Shown here one piece after another: positions 37,211-64,000 of a stretch of 64,000 bases of DNA (its first letter is position 1; the number at the start of each line of letters is the position of its first letter). This DNA is from an uncultured Opitutia bacterium (GTDB lineage: Bacteria > Verrucomicrobiota > Verrucomicrobiia > Opitutales > Opitutaceae): contig CAIJZY010000017.1 in assembly GCA_903825285.1 (NCBI GenBank), positions 167,405-231,404 of the forward strand, read 5' to 3'. The notes beneath the pieces were generated by a model. That model saw only the letters and a list, made by a program, of their open reading frames with translations, was not told where the DNA came from and did not search any database. A program made the position numbers and the translations under genes.

Positions 37211-37391
37211 GACACCCTGCAGTGTTCGAGGTGCTTTCAATAACTGCTCTTTGCCTTGAAATTATCCCGGGAGCTGAACCCGCCGCGGAAGATGCTAGGC
37301 CGTAAATCGGAAAGCAGACGCTACGGAGGAGGCGCCCACCTTAACATAAAAAGGTCCTGAGCCTTTGGGCATACGGCACAGGCGGGGCGTC
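37211..37391 (+). ncRNA. ssrS: Probable 6S RNA
   Basis: About 181 nt; closing stem GACACCCTGC/GCGGGGCGTC with one mismatch; next helices GTG..GTGC/GCAT..GCAC around an internal UUCG/CGG loop resembling the 6S closing-stem region. Confidence 0.55.
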
Positions 37392-37401
37392 ACTCTTTCC
37401 C

Positions 37402-49294: not shown

Positions 49295-49354
49295 CGTTGG
49301 TCGACGCCCGTCGCGAACCGCGCAGACCGCGCGGCGGCGGGGGCGTGGCCGCGC

Positions 49355-49825
49355 TCAGCGCGCCGCCGAGGAGCGCGCGGCCTTGCGCCGGCGTCGGACC
49401 GGGGCGCGGCTGCACATCTTGTCAAAGGCGGCGATCTCGCGGCGCGCGATGTGGCGCAGCGTGGCGCAAAGCTCGGTCACCGCGGCGGTGCGCTCCGTGA
49501 CGGCGCTCGGCGACCGTCCGGACTTGGCCGCAGCCTGATCCGCCTGGGCGTGAATGAGGGCTTCCAGCAGGGCCTGCTCGAGCGCGGGGAAATAGGCGCG
49601 CATGGGATTGCTGTCGTAGCGGCAGACCGGCCGCGGTCCGGCGCTGCGCACCGGCCGGCCGGGCAGGGCGGAGAGCACCTCGTCCAGCGTAAGGTCGAAC
49701 ATGAAGACCAGCGTGTCGGGATTGGCCAGGGGCGTGTGCAGGCGCTCGATGCGCAGCAGCGCCTCCCAGCGGGCGCGGATCTGCGGGCGCATGGCCTGGA
49801 GCCGGAGCAGCAGGTCGGGGTTCAT
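49355..49825 (-). CDS. Hypothetical protein
   Basis: MNPDLLLRLQAMRPQIRARWEALLRIER..., basic C-terminal tail. Confidence 0.55.
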   Translation of the reverse strand: MNPDLLLRLQAMRPQIRARWEALLRIERLHTPLANPDTLVFMFDLTLDEVLSALPGRPVRSAGPRPVCRYDSNPMRAYFPALEQALLEALIHAQADQAAAKSGRSPSAVTERTAAVTELCATLRHIARREIAAFDKMCSRAPVRRRRKAARSSAAR

Positions 49826-50099
49826 GCGGTCATCCCCTCCTGGGGCGCGGCATGACGTCCTAATCTGTGGGCGGAGCAGAAAACTGGGCGCGACCGGAAA
49901 CCGGTGGCGGGATGGGGGGCTCTTTTGGGCAAAATCAATCTCCTCGGGTAACGAACTTCGTTCATGGAACCTACCCGCAGAGGATGCCGCAAAGCCCCGC
50001 GAGCGGCTACGCAGGCGTTGCGCAACATTACGCATATGTTGCGGATCGGTCAGCCGCGCGCGGCGGAGACCCACGGGCGGAACCGCCAAAGGTCGCGGA

Positions 50100-51308
50100 T
50101 CAGCTCCGCAGGAAGCGGTCGTTGAGCCGGCGGTGCCACCGGACATCGCGCCAGTTCGCAAACTGGGGCTGGGCGTAGTTGTGCGGGGTCCAGCCCCACA
50201 TGCCGGCGGCGATGGCGTCATCGACGCTCCATTCCGCCCACTCCAGGAGCCAGCCCCAGTCGAGCTCGGGGCTGTCGAAGTAATACCAGCTCGACCACGA
50301 TTCGCTGGTGGTCAGCGGCATGCCGCGCTCGGCGGCCCAGCCGGCGAAGCGCATGAGCTTCGCGCGCTGCCGCTGGCGGAGCATCGGCCCGATCGCCGCG
50401 GCGGTTTGCTGGCAGCGGCGGGAGAACTCGGCGTGCCAGTCGTTGCGGGTGAAGAGGTGCGGCATGAGCTCGCCGAACTTCGTGCGCTGCGACCAGCGCG
50501 GGTCGGCGTCGGCGTAGAAGTGCACGTCCAGGCAGTCGAGCTCGAGGGGCACGTCGAGCCAGCGCAGGTCGCCGTGGATGGAGGCGGTGAAACGCAGCTC
50601 GGGAAATTCACGGCGCAGCGCGGCGAGCGGGGGATTGAGCTCGTCGGCGATGACCTGCGCCTGGGCGGGCGTGAAGGCGGCGACCCCCCAGTCAATTCCG
50701 TGCTCCTGCTTCAGGCGATGGAGGAAGCCCGGGAAGAAATAGGGCACCTCGTTGGCGAGGTCGACGTAGACGAGCCGTTCGAAGCCGAAGCGCCGGCGCC
50801 ACTGGCGCAGCTGGACGGCCCACATCTCGGCGCCCTCCGCATGCGTGCGCGGGAGCCGGAGCACCGGCGGGCCCTGCAGCGTTGAGCCGGGCAGGTTGCA
50901 AAACCACCAACAGCTGAGCGTGTAGTGAAGCTCCGGGCGGACGAGCAGCTTCTCCATGAACTCGATCAGCCAGCGCCCGGCCGGCGCGGTGACCGCGGTG
51001 TTCCAGTCCCACGGCAGGTACGGCTGTTTCGGATCGGGCCAGTGCAGCCGGCGCGCAGGGTGGGCGAGGTCGATCCACTGCGGCATGGGGTCGAGGCGCA
51101 CGGTGTTGTAGCCGCGCTCGATGGTCTCGTCCAAGACCCGGTCCCAGTCGGCAAAGCTGCCCCCGCGGCCGTGGCGCAGCAGGTAGGCCTGGTCCCACAT
51201 GGCGAGGGTGAGGCGGCGCGGCGTGAGCTGGTCGCGGGCGTCGAAACCGACGCCGGGCGCGGCGGCGGGCCGGGGGGACGCGAGCGTGACTTGGGCGGGC
51301 ATGTCCAT
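50100..51308 (-). CDS. Cellulase-like (glycoside hydrolase TIM-barrel) protein
   Basis: RGYNTVRLDPMPQWIDL, VYVDLANEVPYFFPGF, LDCLDVHFY, PLTTSESWSSW. Confidence 0.7.
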   Translation of the reverse strand: MDMPAQVTLASPRPAAAPGVGFDARDQLTPRRLTLAMWDQAYLLRHGRGGSFADWDRVLDETIERGYNTVRLDPMPQWIDLAHPARRLHWPDPKQPYLPWDWNTAVTAPAGRWLIEFMEKLLVRPELHYTLSCWWFCNLPGSTLQGPPVLRLPRTHAEGAEMWAVQLRQWRRRFGFERLVYVDLANEVPYFFPGFLHRLKQEHGIDWGVAAFTPAQAQVIADELNPPLAALRREFPELRFTASIHGDLRWLDVPLELDCLDVHFYADADPRWSQRTKFGELMPHLFTRNDWHAEFSRRCQQTAAAIGPMLRQRQRAKLMRFAGWAAERGMPLTTSESWSSWYYFDSPELDWGWLLEWAEWSVDDAIAAGMWGWTPHNYAQPQFANWRDVRWHRRLNDRFLRS

Positions 51309-51466
51309 GGTCGTGGGGGGACGGCGCCGGGAGCGGAGCCCAAGGCGCACTCCTGCGTAACGGCGGCACGTGGGGGAGGTCAATCCGATCGCGCCGCCGC
51401 TCGGGTCCGCGTGAATTTCTCCTCGTGAGGCGGCGCGGCGCAGCCTAGAAAGCAGGCAAGTGTCCC

Positions 51467-52621
51467 ATGCGTGAAGCACCCTCCAGCGGCCCCGCCTGTC
51501 AGGCGCGTTGCGCGGCGGCCCTGTGCGCCGGGAAAACGGATCGCGCCCCGGTCTACATCCCGGCCATCGCCTGCGGCGTTTCCTCCGCGCTGCTGGGCCG
51601 GCCGGCGCGCACCGGCACGGGCTCGCTGCGGTTTGCGGAGGTGGCGGCCTGGGCCGACGGCGACGCGGCGCACGCGGAATTTGAGGCGGGCATGATCGAG
51701 GACCTCGTGGCCGTGCATCGGCTCCTCGACGCGGATGTGCTGCGCATGCCGTGGCGGATGAACGAGCGGCCCGATGCGCAGCTCGACGAGCACACGTTCC
51801 GGTTTGGGCCCGAGTCCGGCGAGCACACGATCTGGCAGTACCATCCCGCGGCGGCGGATTTCAGTCCAATGTACCGGTCGCCCCGCGTGATGGCGCCGGA
51901 GGCTCGCCTGCGGCAGGAAATCGCGCAGCTGGAGGCCCTGGCGGCCGACCCGATGCCGGCGGCGCGGGAGTCGATTCAGCCGGCGGTGGACCTGTGGCGC
52001 AGGTTTGGCACCGAGTTCGTCGTGTGCAGCGCCGGCGCGGGCATCGGCGTGGGGCTCGAGCCGGATGACCTGGAACTGCTCGTGACCGCGCCGGATCTTG
52101 TCCGACACAAGATGGCCCTGCAGGGAGAATTCGTGATCGCGGTGGGCCGCGCGGTGAAGGAGGCGGGTTTGCCGCCGGTGATGGCGGGCGGGGGAGACCT
52201 CGCAGGCAATCTCGGCCCCATGTACTCGCCCGCGATGTTCCGCGAGGTGGTGCTGCCGGCCTACGTCCGGTCGGTGGCGGAGCTGAACCGCCTGGGTGTG
52301 CACTACTATTTCCGCAGCGACGGCAATCTGTGGACGCTGATGGACATGCTGTTCACCGAGGCCAACTGCCCGGGCTTCGGCGAGGCCGACCGCGACGCGA
52401 TGATGACGGTGGCTGCGGTGCGCGCGCGGTTTCCACGGCTCGTGATCTGGGGCAATGTCTCGTCTTCGCTGCTGATGTCCGGAAGCGCCGAGGAGGTGGC
52501 GGCCCAGGCGCGCACGGCGGTGTCGGAAGCGGAGCAGCGCGGATATTTTCAGGGCTGCTCCAACGCGATTGTCCAGGGAACGCCGGTGGAAAACGTCTGG
52601 GCAATGATGGCGGAGCGCTGA
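51467..52621 (+). CDS. Uroporphyrinogen decarboxylase-like (URO-D superfamily) protein
   Basis: DRAPVYIPAIACGVSSALLG, MAGGGDLAGNLGPMYSPAMFREVVLPAYVRSVAELNRLGVHYYFRSDGN. Confidence 0.75.
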   Translation: MREAPSSGPACQARCAAALCAGKTDRAPVYIPAIACGVSSALLGRPARTGTGSLRFAEVAAWADGDAAHAEFEAGMIEDLVAVHRLLDADVLRMPWRMNERPDAQLDEHTFRFGPESGEHTIWQYHPAAADFSPMYRSPRVMAPEARLRQEIAQLEALAADPMPAARESIQPAVDLWRRFGTEFVVCSAGAGIGVGLEPDDLELLVTAPDLVRHKMALQGEFVIAVGRAVKEAGLPPVMAGGGDLAGNLGPMYSPAMFREVVLPAYVRSVAELNRLGVHYYFRSDGNLWTLMDMLFTEANCPGFGEADRDAMMTVAAVRARFPRLVIWGNVSSSLLMSGSAEEVAAQARTAVSEAEQRGYFQGCSNAIVQGTPVENVWAMMAER

Positions 52622-52796
52622 CCCCGTCGGCGCTGGCGGGAGACCGGCCCGGAAGGCGTGCCGGTCATGAAAGGATTATGAAATCCGCCGCTTCCCGGCG
52701 TGCTGGCACGGCACCCTCGGCGGGATACGTAATTTTTCCGTTAAATGCGTAGTTACACAGATCGTGTGAGACCGGTGGTGTCCACAGGGTCGGCGC

Positions 52797-53009
52797 ATGT
52801 ACTCCAGCCGGCGCAGCTTCACCCATTCGAACGGCATCACTTTTGTGGATCGCCGTTACGATTTTCTCAGCCGGGTGATCGTGGGCGTGAGCGTGCAGGC
52901 GGGCGCGGCGGACGCGCAGCTTGATTCCGCGGAGCGGATTGGGGCGCTGGAGGAAGCCGAGCGCCTGCTGCGGGAAGTGACCGAGATGTTCGAGCAGCGC
53001 TTCGAATAA
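52797..53009 (+). CDS. Hypothetical small protein
   Basis: 70 aa ORF MYSSRRSFTHSNGITFVDRRYDFLSR... Confidence 0.5.
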   Translation: MYSSRRSFTHSNGITFVDRRYDFLSRVIVGVSVQAGAADAQLDSAERIGALEEAERLLREVTEMFEQRFE

Positions 53010-53025
53010 GCGCCGGTCGGGCGGC

Positions 53026-53244
53026 TTAACGCCGAGCCAATTGCTCCGCGGTCGGCAACTCGTAGCTGATCTTGCCTTCCATGATCTCGCGCAGGGCGGT
53101 GTCCTCGGCCGAGAGTTTCTCGAGCGACTCGACCAGGGGACGATTGCCGTTGCGCAGCTGCTTCACGCGGCGGGACACCACGTTGACCAGGATGTTGGGG
53201 TCGGTGATCAGCTTTAGCGCGGCGTGTAGATAGTCGTCTCTCAT
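53026..53244 (-). CDS. rpoZ: RNA polymerase omega subunit
   Basis: MRDDYLHAALKLITDPNILVNVVSRRVKQLRNGNRPLVE...ALREIMEGKISYE. Confidence 0.88.
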   Translation of the reverse strand: MRDDYLHAALKLITDPNILVNVVSRRVKQLRNGNRPLVESLEKLSAEDTALREIMEGKISYELPTAEQLARR

Positions 53245-53749
53245 GATGAAATGCCGGCAAGCGGCGCTGTGGGTGAAGCCGTTCCGTATAAGAGCGGCTG
53301 AGGCGGACATTTTATGTGGACGGAAGCGCGAAAACGACCCTGATCCGTCGGGTTGCCCGACGTGGGCAGTGAATCGTTTGGGGAGCACCGCCTTAGGTCA
53401 CTCTTAAGACGATGAACCGGCTGCCAGGACTCGCCTCACGAATCCCGGAGCGGGGAGGGCACAATTTGCTTGCCTCGCGGGTCGAAGAGAAGAGATCAAG
53501 AGGCAGAGTCCGGTCAGCATCCAGATGCACGGTTGAGATCGTGGTTTGAGCCAGACAGCAGGACAGCGGTTTTCGCAGGCAGGTTATCTGCAGTGAGCCA
53601 GCTTCGAGTTTTCGGGCAGCGCCAGTGGCATCGAGTCCCAGGGCCTGCCGTCAGCGAGTGATGTCCCTGGCAGTGACGGTTGTCAGCGTGAGGGATGCGA
53701 CCGGATTCATGCCCAGCCTTAACCCAGAACCCATGGATGAAAGGAACCT

Positions 53750-54178
53750 ATGAATCTTACCCAACTATTAACTCAGCGTCGGACCCTGCTGCGGCAGGGA
53801 CACCTGGCCAACCTGGCCTTTGCCTATGTGCGGCTCAGCGAATTTACCCAGCGGCTCGACCGGGCGGGGCTGAAAGGGACGGTGCGCCTGCGGCACGCGG
53901 AGACGGAGACCGGGATTGCGTGGCCCACGCTCACCGTGGATGGGGCCAATGCGTCGGTGGTGGAGGAGCACTTCACGGATGAGGACGTGATCGAATGGGC
54001 GGACGTCTTCACCTTCATCACCGCGGAGAACGAGCTCGACCTCGCGTTTTCGCCGGAAGGACTGGCGGAGCGCTTCCTCGTCCCGCTGCGCGCGGAACTG
54101 GAGCACGCCGGCGTGGTGGTTGACCTCCAACCTCCATCCTCCGCGAGCCAGGCTCACCGGACGGCCGGCGAGAGCTAA
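53750..54178 (+). CDS. Hypothetical protein
   Basis: 142 aa ORF with plausible codon use; no recognised family. Confidence 0.55.
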   Translation: MNLTQLLTQRRTLLRQGHLANLAFAYVRLSEFTQRLDRAGLKGTVRLRHAETETGIAWPTLTVDGANASVVEEHFTDEDVIEWADVFTFITAENELDLAFSPEGLAERFLVPLRAELEHAGVVVDLQPPSSASQAHRTAGES

Positions 54179-54206
54179 ACGCAGTGGTCAGGCCGCGGCG
54201 CTCGGC

Positions 54207-55547
54207 TCAGGCCCGGGCGCCGCGGGCCTTGACCGCGGTCTGGCTCCAGGTGAGCGCCAGCAGGGCGCAGCCGATCAGCGCCGACGCGGCGTAGAGCCCG
54301 ATGGCGCCGTTCCAGCCGAACGCGTCCACCAGCAGGCCGGTGCCCACGCCGCAGACCGAGGCGCCGAGGTAGCCCAGCAGGCCGGTGAGTCCCACGGCAC
54401 TGGAGGACGCGGCCTTGGTGGCGAAATCCGCCGCGGCCACGGCAACGAGCATCTGCGGGCCGTACACGAAGAATCCGAGCGCCCCGAACAGCGCGGCCAT
54501 GGTCAGCCGCTGTCCCGCGGGCACGAAGAACATCAGCCCCACCGCGACGAGCAGGAGGAGCATGAAGAACACCGACACCGGTCCGCGCCGGCCATCGAGC
54601 TTGTCGGAGATCCAGCCGGCGGCGTAAGCGCCGAAAATACCCGCGATCTCGAAGACGGACAGCGACACGCCCGCGTCGTTCAGCGTGAAGCCCTTGGCCT
54701 CCACGAGGTATTTCGGCGCCCAGTCCAGCACGCCGATGCGCACGATATAGATGAAGAAATTGGCGAAGCTCACGATCCAGACCCAGGGGTTGGTGAGGAT
54801 GTGCTCCCGGAAGATGCCCCAGAAGGAATCCTCGCGAGCGACCGCCGGCACGGGTGCTGCGCCCTCGCGGAAGACCTCCACGGCCGGCAGGCCCAGCGAC
54901 TCGGGCGAGTCGGTCAGGCGGTTGAACAGCCACGCGGATCCCGCCGCGCAGAGGGCGGCGGGAACCCAGAACGCCGCGCGCCAGCCGTAATAGGTCACCA
55001 GGTAGCCGGCGCCGACGGCGATCATCGCGCCGCCGACCTGGTGCGAGGCATTCCAGACGCCCCAGGCGCGGCCGATTTCCTTCGGGCTGAACCAGTGCGT
55101 GAGCAGCCGGAAGCAGGGTGGGGAACCTGCGCCCTGGAAAAGATTGTTGAGCGCCCAGAGCGCGACGAAGGCGACGAGGCCGGCGCCGAAGCCAAAGCCG
55201 ACATTGACGAGCGCCGAAAGGAGCAGGCCGCCGGCCATGAGGTAGCGCGGGTTGGTCCGGTCGCCGATGATGCCGCTGAGAAACTTGGAGACGGCATAGA
55301 CAATGGTCGCCGTGCTCAGCAGCAGGCCCCACTGCGTATTGGTGAAGCCGAACTCATCGATGATGGACTTGGCGGCCATCGAGAGATTCTTCCGCAGCAG
55401 GTAGTACAGGGCGTAGCCCGTGGTCATCGAATACATGACGCGGAGCCGCCAGTAGCGGTAGAGCCGCCTGACCTCCGCGGGATCCTCGATCGCGGGAGCG
55501 GCCGCCGGGAGTCGGAGCTGGCCTTGGATCGTGCGGAGCAAATTCAT
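54207..55547 (-). CDS. MFS transporter, glycerol-3-phosphate/hexose-phosphate (OPA/GlpT-like) family
   Basis: YYLLRKNLSMAAKSIIDEFGFTNTQWGLLLSTATIVYAVSKFLSGIIGDRTNPRYLM, NNLFQGAGSPPCFRLLTHWFSPKE. Confidence 0.9.
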   Translation of the reverse strand: MNLLRTIQGQLRLPAAAPAIEDPAEVRRLYRYWRLRVMYSMTTGYALYYLLRKNLSMAAKSIIDEFGFTNTQWGLLLSTATIVYAVSKFLSGIIGDRTNPRYLMAGGLLLSALVNVGFGFGAGLVAFVALWALNNLFQGAGSPPCFRLLTHWFSPKEIGRAWGVWNASHQVGGAMIAVGAGYLVTYYGWRAAFWVPAALCAAGSAWLFNRLTDSPESLGLPAVEVFREGAAPVPAVAREDSFWGIFREHILTNPWVWIVSFANFFIYIVRIGVLDWAPKYLVEAKGFTLNDAGVSLSVFEIAGIFGAYAAGWISDKLDGRRGPVSVFFMLLLLVAVGLMFFVPAGQRLTMAALFGALGFFVYGPQMLVAVAAADFATKAASSSAVGLTGLLGYLGASVCGVGTGLLVDAFGWNGAIGLYAASALIGCALLALTWSQTAVKARGARA

Positions 55548-55773
55548 GAAGGCCAGTGAGACCAAAGCCACGCCGTCACGGGGTCAAAACCAGAGTCAGA
55601 AGCAATCGCCTCGCGGCGCGCAACTCGGCCAACATGGCCGTCTAAAGTGGTGCCCCCACGGGGAATCATTTACCCTCTAAGGCTCCGTCCATTTTCTGAA
55701 ATAGGACATTTATAGGACGTTTTGTTCTCAGTCAGGCTCTGTGGTGGACAGCGCCGCGTCTATTCGAGGCGTT

Positions 55774-56094
55774 TCATTCGGCTTGGACGCGATGGAGTGC
55801 GTAGGGCAATTGCGCAAAGTCTACTCGCAGTTCACGCAATGAACGGTGGTTGATGAATTTCGCCGCTGCGAATACAAGCGCCTGCTTACCCGTGCCCTTG
55901 TTCGCAGCAGCGATTGCCTCGGCATGGGTGCGCGTGAAGGCAGCAGCGGGACTACGCAACCACAACTCGTCTGTCGTCGAGGTCCGGCTGCTTGCCCTCT
56001 GCCGAACAGCTTTTCTCCGGCACCACGAGCAGCTCGCGATACGGCACGCCGAGGTGGTGGGTGTAGATGAAGCTCTTCCCTTTGAAATCGAGTG
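55774..56094 (-). pseudogene. DNA methyltransferase (type III Mod-like) remnant: N-terminus joined out of frame to a C-terminal fragment
   Basis: Reverse strand MPSLDFKGKSFIYTHHLGVPYRELLVVPEKSCSAEGKQPDLDD then, in another frame, DELWLRSPAAAFTRTHAEAIAAANKG...ELRVDFAQLPYALHRV; catalytic middle absent. Confidence 0.6.
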
Positions 56095-56187
56095 ACGGCA
56101 TGCCAAACAGCATGCAAAACGGAAACACGGGCGCGAGGGAATTTCCGCCGGCGCGCGGGGAAACCCACACGCCGGTCGCTGTCAGAC

Positions 56188-56210: not shown

Positions 56211-56576
56211 TCAGTCCTCGTCGAGTAGCATGAGGGTGAGGACCGGCGCGGGCGTGTCGCCGGGTCCGACGTGAAGTTTCAGGTCGTGGGCGCGATTTCC
56301 GATGATAACCCTGAACGAGATGGTATCCGCTTCCCGGTTTCGTTGGCTTATCATGGTCTTCGCGGCCCAGCTTATGTCGTGGAGGATTCCATCGAGGTCG
56401 GAACCTGATTTGGTCCCTTCCTCGATGATAGACCACACCGTGGCGGTGCAGCAAAAGCTCCGGGACCAGTAGACCCGGATGACTTGAAATTGGGACAGGT
56501 TTACGAGCACGCCGTCGTCGATGGCTTGTTGCCGGCTGTAGGAAAAAATGACTTCTCCGAACGGGTTACTATCCAT
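56211..56576 (-). CDS. DUF6573-like mobile-element protein
   Basis: MDSNPFGEVIFSYSRQQAIDDGVLVNLSQF...CTATVWSIIEEGT...GILHDI. Confidence 0.6.
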   Translation of the reverse strand: MDSNPFGEVIFSYSRQQAIDDGVLVNLSQFQVIRVYWSRSFCCTATVWSIIEEGTKSGSDLDGILHDISWAAKTMISQRNREADTISFRVIIGNRAHDLKLHVGPGDTPAPVLTLMLLDED

Positions 56577-57020
56577 GGTTTGCGCCGTCCGGCGGCTCGG
56601 TCGTGTGTGCGTCTTGCACCTTATCGACCTCACTGCCGATTGGCGTTTCGCCTCACCCACGAAAGTCAAAGGGGTGCGGAGCGCCGAGGAGTGGTGACTT
56701 GCTCACCCGACGAGGGGGAAGCGCAGGTTTCCCCGTGGTGGAGGCCCGAAGGGCACGACCTTGACCGTGGGTAAAATGGGAGAAACAGCGGCTGGCAGTG
56801 CGCTAGTAAAAATCGAGTGTTAGCGAGCATCTTTCCTTCCCCTGGGTGCGAGCGCTGCGATGACCCCAAAAGGTCGTAGCAAGCGAGCCGGGCGGGCGGG
56901 AATCTACCCGAGTGGCTGGCAAAGCGGGTCAGCAGTCTCCGAGGACGCGCAGATGAAACGAAACAACGACGGAAGGCAGCGCCGGAGCGCCGGTGCCGAA
57001 ATTGTCCTGGTGTAGCGGAT

Positions 57021-57151
57021 GGGGCGGAAATTCGAGGGGCGGAAATTGGGATTTTACGCCGTATCTGCCCCACGCGCGCCACACCGGCGACGGCAGGGGC
57101 GGAAAGGAATAAGGCAGCCTATAACATAGGCTGCCGTTTCCGCCCCCTGCC
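57021..57151. repeat. Iteron-like GGGGCGGAAA repeats and a long composite hairpin
   Basis: GGGGCGGAAATT at 57021-57032 and 57036-57047; GGGGCGGAAA 57096-57105; inverse TTTCCGCCCC 57137-57146; inner stem GGCAGCCTAT-AAC-ATAGGCTGCC 57113-57135. Confidence 0.75.
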
Positions 57152-57239
57152 GGTCGCCCGGCCAACGAGAAATAGTATTTTAAGAAATCTTGCCCCGGCA
57201 CGTTTCGCCTACGTTTACCTGGCGGTATACTGCCTCGTT

Positions 57240-58400
57240 ATGAATCTACTTAACTGTGCTCCAATCATCGAATTTGAAATCGTCCCGCTCTCTATCATTG
57301 AGGGACTTACAGACGAAAAGGTTATCCAGAATCAGCCGCCAAAAAATCCCGCCCCGGCGTCGGGCGAACTCCCGGACATTGTTTCGGGAGACCATTTTCT
57401 CGAAATCAACTACCCACCACGACGGGAGTTGATTGAGGGGCTGTTGCACCAAGGGACCAAGCTCCTGCTGGCCGGCGCGAGCAAAGCGGGCAAGACTTGG
57501 CTGCTGCTTGCGATGGCAATCGCTGTTGCCACCGGCGAGCATTGGCTCGGCCTGGCGACGAGGCAGTCCCGCGTGCTGTTCATCAACCTGGAAATTCTGC
57601 CCGATTTTTTCCAGCATCGCTGCTGGATGGTGAAGGAAAAAATGGGCCTGAATTCACTTGGCTCCCTCACCGTCTGGAATTTGAGAGGCTACGAAGCGGA
57701 CATTGCAGTAATGGTAGACCACATCCTGGCCCGAATCCAAAAGGACGGCGGCTACGACATGGTCGTGATTGACCCAGTTTATAAATGTTATGGCGGAAGA
57801 GACGAGAACAACGCGGGGGATATGGCGAATTTCCTTTCTCACCTCGAACGAATCGCGGCAAACACCGGCGCGGCGGTCGTTTTTTCCACGCACCATTCGA
57901 AGGGAAATCAAGCCGGCAGGAACGTGCTGGACCGCACGTCAGGCTCCGGTGTATTTGCCCGCGATGCCGACACTTACCTGAGTGTCACCGAACACGAGAA
58001 GGACCAGCATTTCTCGGTGGAATCAGTGGTGCGCAATGGGCCTCCCGTGCCCGCGTTCGTGCTGAGGAAGGCGTTCCCATTATTCGTGCGTGACGACACA
58101 ATCGACCCATCCAAACTGAAGCGGTCGAACCGGCGCGCTGCTCCTGCTTCACAAACTTCCGCCCCTCTCGGCAGGAAGCCGAAGTTCACCGATGAAGAAC
58201 TGCTTAATCTGCTGCCGGCGGCGGGGCTTACTTACGGTGAATGGGAGAAAGCCGCGAAAGATGCGCTGGCCTGCTCGGAAACTACATTCAAAGAAAAGCG
58301 CCGGGCACTCATAGGCAATAAAGCCGTCGCCTTGGAAAAATACCGTTACACGCGGCTCGCCGGCCTGGATTCAGGCGCAACCCCGATGACTGAGACCTGA
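57240..58400 (+). CDS. AAA/RecA-fold ATPase, RepA-like replicative helicase
   Basis: Walker A LLAGASKAGKTWLLLAMA, FINLEI, Walker B YDMVVIDPVYK, VVFSTHHSKGNQAGRNVLDRTSGSGVFARDADTYLSV. Confidence 0.82.
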   Translation: MNLLNCAPIIEFEIVPLSIIEGLTDEKVIQNQPPKNPAPASGELPDIVSGDHFLEINYPPRRELIEGLLHQGTKLLLAGASKAGKTWLLLAMAIAVATGEHWLGLATRQSRVLFINLEILPDFFQHRCWMVKEKMGLNSLGSLTVWNLRGYEADIAVMVDHILARIQKDGGYDMVVIDPVYKCYGGRDENNAGDMANFLSHLERIAANTGAAVVFSTHHSKGNQAGRNVLDRTSGSGVFARDADTYLSVTEHEKDQHFSVESVVRNGPPVPAFVLRKAFPLFVRDDTIDPSKLKRSNRRAAPASQTSAPLGRKPKFTDEELLNLLPAAGLTYGEWEKAAKDALACSETTFKEKRRALIGNKAVALEKYRYTRLAGLDSGATPMTET

Positions 58401-58402
58401 GT

Positions 58403-59149
58403 TCAATTCCCAATGTCCGGAGAACTTCTTCCCAGCCGCTGAACGGCCTTGGCCTGAAACGCTGCGTGGTCCGGATGGCCCCGAAAATCCACCAATGGAC
58501 TTAGCGCGCCCATTGCGTCGGGTCGGTCTGGAATTTCACGGATGCGGTCACAGTGGATACGCTTGGCCGGCAGCCAATCTAGGAATTCACCGGCGGGTCT
58601 GGCTGTGAGATGACAAGACTTGCCTCCATCTGCTATCCGGCGGAGCAATAATCTTAGGTCGGTGCCCGTGGGTGACTTTGCTTGGTATGTGAGAGAGGAA
58701 AACCCGAGAATGAGGTGTTGGCTTCGGCTGATGCCAATGAGTTGGAGCGACGCCCATGGATGGTAATCAGCCCGAAATCCCAAATCCACGATGAACCAAC
58801 CATCACGGGCCGGCGCATTGTCGGGGAGCGGCGCACCGTATTGGCGCGACTGCCGCTTGGACCACACCACCGTCCGCACCCTAGGGGTTAGCGGGCCGAC
58901 GGTGTTGTTTGCATCATCTCGGAAATCGAGCGGTTGACCTGCAACGTAGTCCCGCAGGACGAACGTCGGATAAGTGCACTCCGCCGCCAGATAGCCTTCG
59001 GTCGATACAAAGGTCACCGTCTCTCCCGACAGAGTCGCATAGATGACCGTGTTGGCCGCCAGACACACGTCGTTTGTCTTGATTGTGCTCAAAGGAAGCT
59101 CCGGCCCGCCATGATGACAGCCACAACAGCAATAACCGCCCAAATCCAA
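58403..59149 (-). CDS. Hypothetical protein
   Basis: 248-codon ORF in a lower-GC region; TTG start uncertain. Confidence 0.4.
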   Translation of the reverse strand: MDLGGYCCCGCHHGGPELPLSTIKTNDVCLAANTVIYATLSGETVTFVSTEGYLAAECTYPTFVLRDYVAGQPLDFRDDANNTVGPLTPRVRTVVWSKRQSRQYGAPLPDNAPARDGWFIVDLGFRADYHPWASLQLIGISRSQHLILGFSSLTYQAKSPTGTDLRLLLRRIADGGKSCHLTARPAGEFLDWLPAKRIHCDRIREIPDRPDAMGALSPLVDFRGHPDHAAFQAKAVQRLGRSSPDIGN

Positions 59150-59412
59150 ATCAACGCCTTCATGGAGTCTGCGATATCGGTGTTAACTACCAACGCGCGC
59201 TCCGACTGCTGTTTCACGATGCCGAGGTCGTCCCGTTGCGCGCCGTTTGCTCCGTAGAGCGGCTGCACGGACTGCCGGACAACCTCGGCGACCATACCCG
59301 GCATATTGGCCTGAAGTGCGGCCAGTTGTGACTTGGCGTCAAGCAAGACGCGCTGTGTTTCTGCCAGTGTTGAATGCGTCGCCGTGGCGAGGTCGATGGC
59401 TTTCTCCATCAT
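59089..59412 (-). CDS. Hypothetical small coiled-coil protein with C-terminal TM
   Basis: MMEKAIDLATATHSTLAETQRVLLDAKSQLAALQ...ALIWIWAVIAVVAVIMAGRSFL. Confidence 0.55.
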   Translation of the reverse strand: MMEKAIDLATATHSTLAETQRVLLDAKSQLAALQANMPGMVAEVVRQSVQPLYGANGAQRDDLGIVKQQSERALVVNTDIADSMKALIWIWAVIAVVAVIMAGRSFL

Positions 59413-59429
59413 CAACCGCGAATCAACCG

Positions 59430-60344
59430 TGCCCGCTGGCGCAGCGGATCGGACCCTGCCTGACGAGTTCCATCGGCATCGCGCCCAACTGGATGCTGGC
59501 GAAGATGGCGGCCGACCTGCACAAGCCGGACGGGCTCACGGTCATTGACGATGCCGACATTCCCGGCCGGCTGCTCGACCTGCCGATCAGCGACTTTCCC
59601 GGCATCGGTTCCCAAATGGAGCTCCGCCTGAAACTGCGCGGCATCGGCACCGTCGAGCAGCTGTACCGGGCGACCAAGTCCCAGCTCCACGGCGCATGGG
59701 GCGGCATTGAGGGCGAGCGCATGTATGAGCGGCTCCGCGGGGCCAGCGTCCCGCTGCCGATTCAGAAGAACCAGACCGTCGGCCATTCGCACGTCCTGCC
59801 GCCCTTCCTGCGCACCCAAGAGAAGGCCCACGCCGTGCTCCACAAGCTGCTCCAGAAGGCCGCCATGCGGCTGCGGGACATCGGCCACTACTCCGGCGGC
59901 CTGACCGTTTGGGTGAGCTACCGCAACGGCGTGAAGTGGTACGACGACCTTCGTTTCAACGAGACGCAGGACACCGTCACCCTGACCGCCGCGCTGAACC
60001 AGCTGTGGCGGCGGCGGCCTTGGGAGCTGCTGCACGCCGAGCCGATGCAGCTCGGGCTGGTCCTGACACACCTGCTCGAGATGCGGGGCCACACCCTCGA
60101 CCTGTTCGAACAGCCCAAGCACGACGCCCGCGAGCGGCTGAACCACGCGGTCGACACGGTCAACCAGACCTTCGGCCACGGCTCGGTCTATTTCGGCGGC
60201 GCCCACGGCGTGATCGAAAACGCTCCGATGCGGATTTCCTTCACCTGCATCCCCAAGCCCGAGATTGAGGAGATCGATCCGAAACGGGAAAGAAGGCTCC
60301 GGCCGCTCCCGCCGAAGCCAGCCGAAGCCGAGTCGCCGGACTGA
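59430..60344 (+). pseudogene. 5'-truncated Y-family DNA polymerase (DinB/UmuC-like)
   Basis: Homology begins at LAQRIGPCLTSSIGIAPNWMLAKMAADLHKPDGLTVIDD, continues ISDFPGIGSQMELRLKLRGIGTVEQL and little-finger region; palm N-terminus with catalytic acidic residues missing. Confidence 0.8.
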
Positions 60345-63239: not shown

Positions 63240-63314
63240 TGGTGCCCCCACGGGGAATCGAACCCCGCTTTGAAGATTGAGAATCTCCTGTCCTAACCGA
63301 TAGACGATGAGGGC
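63240..63314 (-). tRNA. tRNA-Glu (anticodon CTC), CCA encoded
   Basis: Reverse complement GCCCTCATCGTCTATCGGTTAGGACAGGAGATTCTCAATCTTCAAAGCGGGGTTCGATTCCCCGTGGGGGCACCA. Confidence 0.95.
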
Positions 63315-63385: not shown

Positions 63386-64000
63386 TCAATAAAACAGGGA
63401 GCGGTCCAGGCTGCGGTACCGGATGGCTTCCAGCAGGTGCGGCGCCTCGATGCGCTCGGCCAGGGCCAGGTCCGCGATGGTGCGCGCGACCTTGAGAATC
63501 CGGTCGTAGGCGCGGGCGGAGAGGCTGAGCTGCTCCATGGCCTGCTGCAGGAGGTCGCCGAGCGCGGGCTCGATCGCGCAGTGCCGGCGGATCTGCGCGT
63601 GGGTCATGCGCGCGTTGGCCACCGTGCGGGTGCCGGCGAACCGTTCCTGCTGGCGGGTTCGGGCTGCCTCGGTGCGGGACCGCAGCGCAGCGGAGGTTTC
63701 GCCCGTCTGCTCAGAGCGCAGCTCGCTGAGCGACAGGGCCGGGGCGTCGATGTGGATGTCGATGCGGTCGAGGAGCGGGCCGCTGATGCGGGCGCGGTAG
63801 CGCTGCACCTGGGTCGGCGAGCAGCGGCACTCGTGCTTCGGGTCGCCGAGGTAGCCGCAAGGGCAAGGGTTCATCGCGGCGACGAGCATGAACGCGCAGG
63901 GGAGCGTGACCTTGCCCGCGCTGCGGGAGATGGCGACCTCGCCGTCCTCCAGCGGCTGGCGGAGCACCTCGAGGGCGGAGCGCTTGAACTCCGGCAGCTC
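63386..64000 (-). CDS. comM: YifB/ComM family Mg-chelatase-like ATPase, 5' end truncated by window edge
   Basis: [69 protein letters not shown]. Confidence 0.93.

Follow-up and report, generated by a model that had tools for sequence, protein, structure and literature searches.

Genes at the locus

The window, that is, the whole 64-kb stretch of DNA that was analysed, contains a pair of divergent genes near its right end. A 570-bp gap (56670-57240) separates a DUF6573 gene on the minus strand from an ATPase gene on the plus strand. Two further open reading frames lie behind the ATPase gene.

56211-56669, minus strand: DUF6573 gene, 152 aa (Pfam PF20213, E = 2.9e-10)
57240-58400, plus strand: RepA-like ATPase of the hexameric-helicase type, 386 aa, with an AAA_25 core and a helix-rich C-terminal domain; frame intact
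58403-59149, minus strand: ORF of 248 aa inside the element, without a Pfam or PHROG match
59089-59415, minus strand: small ORF of 108 aa with a C-terminal hydrophobic stretch and no Pfam or PHROG family match

Neither Pfam and PHROGs nor phages and viral contigs yielded a relative of the 248-aa ORF. The ATPase matched Pfam AAA_25 (E = 1.4e-35) with Walker A and B present, its best solved relative in the PDB was RSF1010 RepA (1g8y, E = 1.6e-6), and its PHROG matches were phage primase/helicases (PHROG 2597, DNA primase, E = 4e-59). An earlier note on this DNA had called the protein similar to RepA helicases and its neighbor DUF6573-like, and both assignments are borne out by these searches. 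The DUF6573 family was present in 40 of the 252 genomes of the bacterial family. In the predicted structure of the ATPase (pLDDT 84), a confident core spans residues ~41-295, the first 37 residues are unordered, and residues 318-372 form a separate, confidently modelled C-terminal domain. Because full-length TM-scores in a viral fold search with the ATPase were modest, its assignment to a family is based on sequence.

Proteins related to the ATPase act as replicative helicases in phages and in integrase-bearing elements. They were found in 14 of 252 family genomes (own genome included), in many phages, and in loci that carry a tyrosine integrase (L014, L041, L042, and L046). The ATPase shares the same motifs and a RecA-fold core of 35-47% identity with phage AAA_25 replicative helicases that work with a primase (PHROG 2597; e.g., Paenibacillus phage Hayley and the IMG/VR locus L095), and the L095 helicase also resembles it in its short N-terminus and similar length. 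However, in L095 and similar phages the helicase gene comes right after a primase gene, and the proteins of others are long enough for a primase fusion; here, a gap with repeats and a hairpin takes that place. Pfam, PHROG, and profile searches among the ORFs neighboring the ATPase detected neither a primase (including the RepB type) nor a RepC iteron-binding initiator.

Repeats and a hairpin in the divergent gap

The gap contains four repeat boxes, a large hairpin, and an A+T-rich tract. All boxes lie 5' of the ATPase gene, and the A+T-rich tract has boxes to one side only.

57021-57032, plus strand: repeat 1, GGGGCGGAAATT, 12-mer
57036-57047, plus strand: repeat 2, GGGGCGGAAATT, 12-mer, 15 bp from repeat 1
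57084-57161, no strand assigned: nested hairpin that includes repeats 3 and 4
57096-57105, plus strand: repeat 3, 10-base core GGGGCGGAAA, inside the nested hairpin
57137-57146, minus strand: repeat 4, inverted 10-base core GGGGCGGAAA, inside the nested hairpin
57166-57192, no strand assigned: A+T-rich tract between the hairpin and the ATPase gene, a candidate unwinding site

The two identical 12-mers were found where the earlier note had placed them, at 57021 and 57036. The third and inverted copies that it had also listed are both present, but they match the 10-base core only and not the full 12-mer. The core has four exact sites in total on the two strands of the 64-kb window, all within 57021-57146, and in 1000 dinucleotide shuffles of the 570-bp gap no 10-mer occurred in four copies (0/1000). 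The 12-mer has three copies in the 3.7-Mb genome, two of them in this gap. The 12-mer pair by itself is weak evidence because a repeated 12-mer was also present in 110 of the 1000 shuffles.

The nested hairpin likewise agrees with its earlier description and is far above chance. Its outer arms (57092-57105 and 57137-57151) are formed from the last two cores, and its inner stem is GGCAGCCTAT-AAC-ATAGGCTGCC (57113-57135). The DNA fold has an energy of -34.8 kcal/mol (z = -8.2), and none of 200 shuffles was equally stable; the fold of the other strand (z = -7.8) also beat all 200. The hairpin ends ~80 bp upstream of the ATPase start at 57240. The A+T content of the gap reaches its maximum, 67%, in a 30-base window from 57160. 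No DnaA box was present in the gap, the one weak match being located within the ATPase gene.

What could the boxes and the hairpin be? The main rival to a replication origin is an operator for the divergent genes, a possible though unlikely explanation in which a repressor (for example, the C-terminal domain of the ATPase or a lost HTH protein) would bind GGGGCGGAAA and control both the DUF6573 and the ATPase gene. The location of the boxes between two divergent genes fits such a role, operators commonly have inverted pairs like boxes 3 and 4, and related elements come with HTH genes. However, the 570-bp gap and the hairpin are far larger than an operator requires, and no sigma-70-like promoter was detected near the boxes in a scan that has little power here.

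It seems rather improbable that the hairpin terminates transcription or ends an antisense RNA that runs across the ATPase start, comparable to plasmid copy-number control. Read on the minus strand, the inner stem has 10 pairs, a terminator-like score, and TTATTCCTTT behind it, but this tail is a poor T run and no minus-strand gene ends at the hairpin. Furthermore, a terminator leaves the outer stem built of repeat boxes unexplained, and the hairpin region matched no Rfam family.

Finally, the pattern could be an inert leftover, such as a REP- or MITE-type palindromic repeat or a product of chance in DNA of high GC content. In a decaying element, function need not have been conserved. Nevertheless, this explanation is very improbable: four boxes and a hairpin are beyond all shuffles, and a REP or MITE source was rejected because the DNA is single copy in its own genome.

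The gap had no real match in 251 family genomes and no relative among plasmids, with which it shared one 33-bp match only. The boxes were absent upstream of ~90 relatives of the ATPase that are 27-47% identical to it (17 loci in the genomes of the relatives and 80 viral loci, partly overlapping), and the box pair was present in none of the viral contigs. Conservation of the repeats near homologous ATPases, whose absence would by the earlier note refute its reading, was thus absent at every sampled divergence, the closest relative being 47% identical. Because iterons change fast in evolution and no ATPase relative of more than 47% identity was found, the comparison is not a fair refutation.

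Probable attachment sites and decay of the element

The ATPase unit lies between two copies of the 3' end of a tRNA gene, together with the remains of two other genes.

55648-55667, minus strand: displaced 3' end of tRNA-Glu(CTC), distal attachment (att) copy, with 20/20 identity to 63240-63259
55774-56170, minus strand: remnant of a site-specific DNA methyltransferase gene, N- and C-terminal ends joined, ~1.5 kb of the middle lost
59430-60344, plus strand: dinB (Y-family polymerase) pseudogene without its first ~140 codons, at the edge of the low-GC DNA
63240-63314, minus strand: intact tRNA-Glu(CTC) (ARAGORN and Rfam), target gene and proximal attachment site, adjoining comM

The tRNA-Glu(CTC) 20-mer has exactly two copies in the genome, one at 55648 and one in the intact tRNA, and a comparable control search using tRNA-Gly yielded 11 nt at most. 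The genome assembly comprises 62 contigs at draft level, and the present one stops within comM, at window position 64000. The relatives suggest that the organism is a member of the Verrucomicrobiota, perhaps of the Opitutaceae. An intact tRNA gene and a displaced 3' fragment delimit an inserted element in tRNA-gene genomic islands (PMC4383910), and the two tRNA-Glu(CTC) sites enclose 7.59 kb. It appears that the ATPase unit is a remnant of a tRNA-integrated element because the 20-mer is found at these two sites only and the same tRNA is occupied or empty elsewhere in the genus. In other words, the unit seems to be part of a mobile element embedded in the chromosome, as the earlier note had proposed; the displaced tRNA-Glu end supports this proposal and points to integration.

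The 7.6-kb interval does not represent a single clean element, as the DNA between dinB and the tRNA has a host-like GC content. The GC content is 0.58 at 55.65-59.43 kb and rises to 0.67 in the remaining part up to the tRNA; the first 49 kb of the window have 0.70. Low-GC DNA is hence confined to 55.65-~59.43 kb (58% vs 70% in the host), and the shift at ~59.43 kb coincides with the broken dinB. Profile matches to dinB start at position ~140, and the pseudogene is 63-69% identical to the closest intact dinB in its own genome (contig C7) and in family relatives. Likewise, tblastn matched 55952-56170 and 55774-56103 to the two ends of one Chryseobacterium/Proteus methyltransferase region.

No integrase was detected in the window when six integrases were searched (nothing below E = 0.1), and PF00589 in the own genome was confined to other contigs. 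The earlier note had taken the absence of an integrase as the mark of an unusual replicon. That argument does not hold: sister elements at tRNA-Glu carry tyrosine integrases and this copy is decayed, so the missing integrase most likely reflects decay. On the simplest reading of the sequence, a deletion or rearrangement at ~59.43 kb would have taken the integrase side and fused the element to host-like DNA. The part at 59.43-63.24 kb may be cargo or a later insertion. Near the left att copy, there are short GGACA..GGAC repeats similar to those next to the integrases of relatives; with five such patterns in the window, the likeness is only suggestive.

The same tRNA in other genomes of the genus

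The order comM-tRNA-Glu is kept in the genus and the DNA behind the tRNA varies. One genome (G009) has a 3.3-kb element at tRNA-Glu with a DUF5906 helicase, an HTH gene, and an integrase; a second (G010) has a 4.8-kb element with an integrase, a G2P-like Rep, and its own att copy; a third (G005) retains an integrase fragment. In a fourth (G011), a conserved chromosomal gene directly beside tRNA-Glu represents the empty site. The integrases of the sister-species elements at this tRNA are tyrosine integrases. An empty site cannot be defined from the flanking MFS and PQQ genes because they have no orthologues in the genus. Thus, tRNA-Glu(CTC) beside comM is an integration hotspot in the genus that hosts very small elements, and the replication genes at the hotspot differ: an AAA_25 helicase here, a DUF5906 helicase in G009, and a G2P-like Rep in G010.

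The locus resembles tRNA-gene genomic islands (Islander type; PMC4383910) in having an intact tRNA at one end and a displaced exact 3' fragment at the other. The use of the same tRNA by integrase-bearing elements in sister species, where the site is empty or differently filled, is a further likeness. Unlike such islands, this one has lost its integrase, and its interval holds host-like DNA and pseudogenes. The element is a decayed member of a common kind rather than a new system.

A possible replication origin

The best explanation, considered moderately probable, is that the locus is the replication module of a decayed small element integrated at tRNA-Glu(CTC), with the 570-bp gap as its former origin. 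A tyrosine integrase would have inserted the element into the 3' end of tRNA-Glu(CTC), and this insertion would account for the copy of the tRNA end observed at 55648-55667. Later, the element would have decayed by loss of the integrase, gutting of the methyltransferase gene, and replacement of the right side by host-like DNA and a broken dinB. In its mobile, excised state, the element most likely used the gap at 56670-57240 to start replication. Proteins may have bound to the repeated GGGGCGGAAA boxes, melting may have occurred at the A+T-rich tract, and the large hairpin may have been exposed as a structure on which priming or loading took place. The AAA_25 ATPase would be the replicative helicase, and a primase, perhaps also an initiator, would have come from the host or a helper phage.

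An origin function of the gap is plausible, and it is favored because four boxes, an A+T-rich tract, and a strong hairpin are packed beside a helicase gene. It is also favored because integrated elements with iteron origins have precedent: a rep gene with iterons in the neighboring gap has been proven for two integrative islands, SGI1 (PMC7433901) and PLE (PMC7145576). It is weakened because box conservation near ~90 relatives and matches in 251 family genomes are lacking, because the gap has no DnaA box and the unit no primase or RepC, and because a typical iteron origin has more repeats than the two full copies and the two hairpin copies present here.

How does the gap compare with known origins? 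The rep-oriV of SGI1 (PMC7433901) is similar in that an integrated island carries a rep gene with GC-rich direct repeats and A+T-rich DNA in the adjoining gap. However, the Rep of SGI1 is a RepA_C initiator, and four 17-bp iterons and a DnaA box lie downstream of rep, whereas here a helicase is encoded and fewer boxes lie upstream of the gene, with no DnaA box. Compared with phage-inducible chromosomal islands (PICI, as described in PMC6092414), the repeats here lie 5' of the gene and to one side only of the A+T-rich tract. The unit resembles the IncQ replicon RSF1010, whose RepA is the top match to the ATPase among solved structures. The oriV of RSF1010 combines direct repeats, A+T-rich DNA, and hairpins. 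Unlike in RSF1010, RepC and the RepB primase are missing here, and the sequence and count of the repeats differ.

A helicase-only replicon, in which the primase-less AAA_25 helicase would bind the GGGGCGGAAA boxes and hairpin via its own C-terminal domain and so recognise and unwind the origin, is quite improbable. Few replicons are known in this group, and the gap, if it is an origin, would be a compact one.

Other observations

In a sister species (L067:9693-12895), an element of ~3.3 kb with DUF5906 helicase, HTH, and integrase genes lies at the same tRNA-Glu, and the adjacent response-regulator gene is truncated. The own genome has apparently two tandem integrative elements at another tRNA, tRNA-Glu(TTC) (contig C41:136000-155900, locus L040, 5351-17491). 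At this locus, the 3' end of the tRNA is present three times, and two tyrosine integrases and one or more G2P-like Rep proteins are encoded; one integrase frame overlaps tRNA-Glu(TTC).

Host-like genes (cellulase-like, URO-D, RpoZ-like at 53026-53388, and MFS) occupy window positions 49295-55571, between ndk and the att copy. In the sister species, ndk is ~1-9.5 kb from tRNA-Glu; here, the genes at 49295-55571 intervene, which suggests a local rearrangement. Further upstream, a 6S RNA gene (Rfam RF00013, above the gathering score) is present at 37211-37392 on the plus strand of the window.
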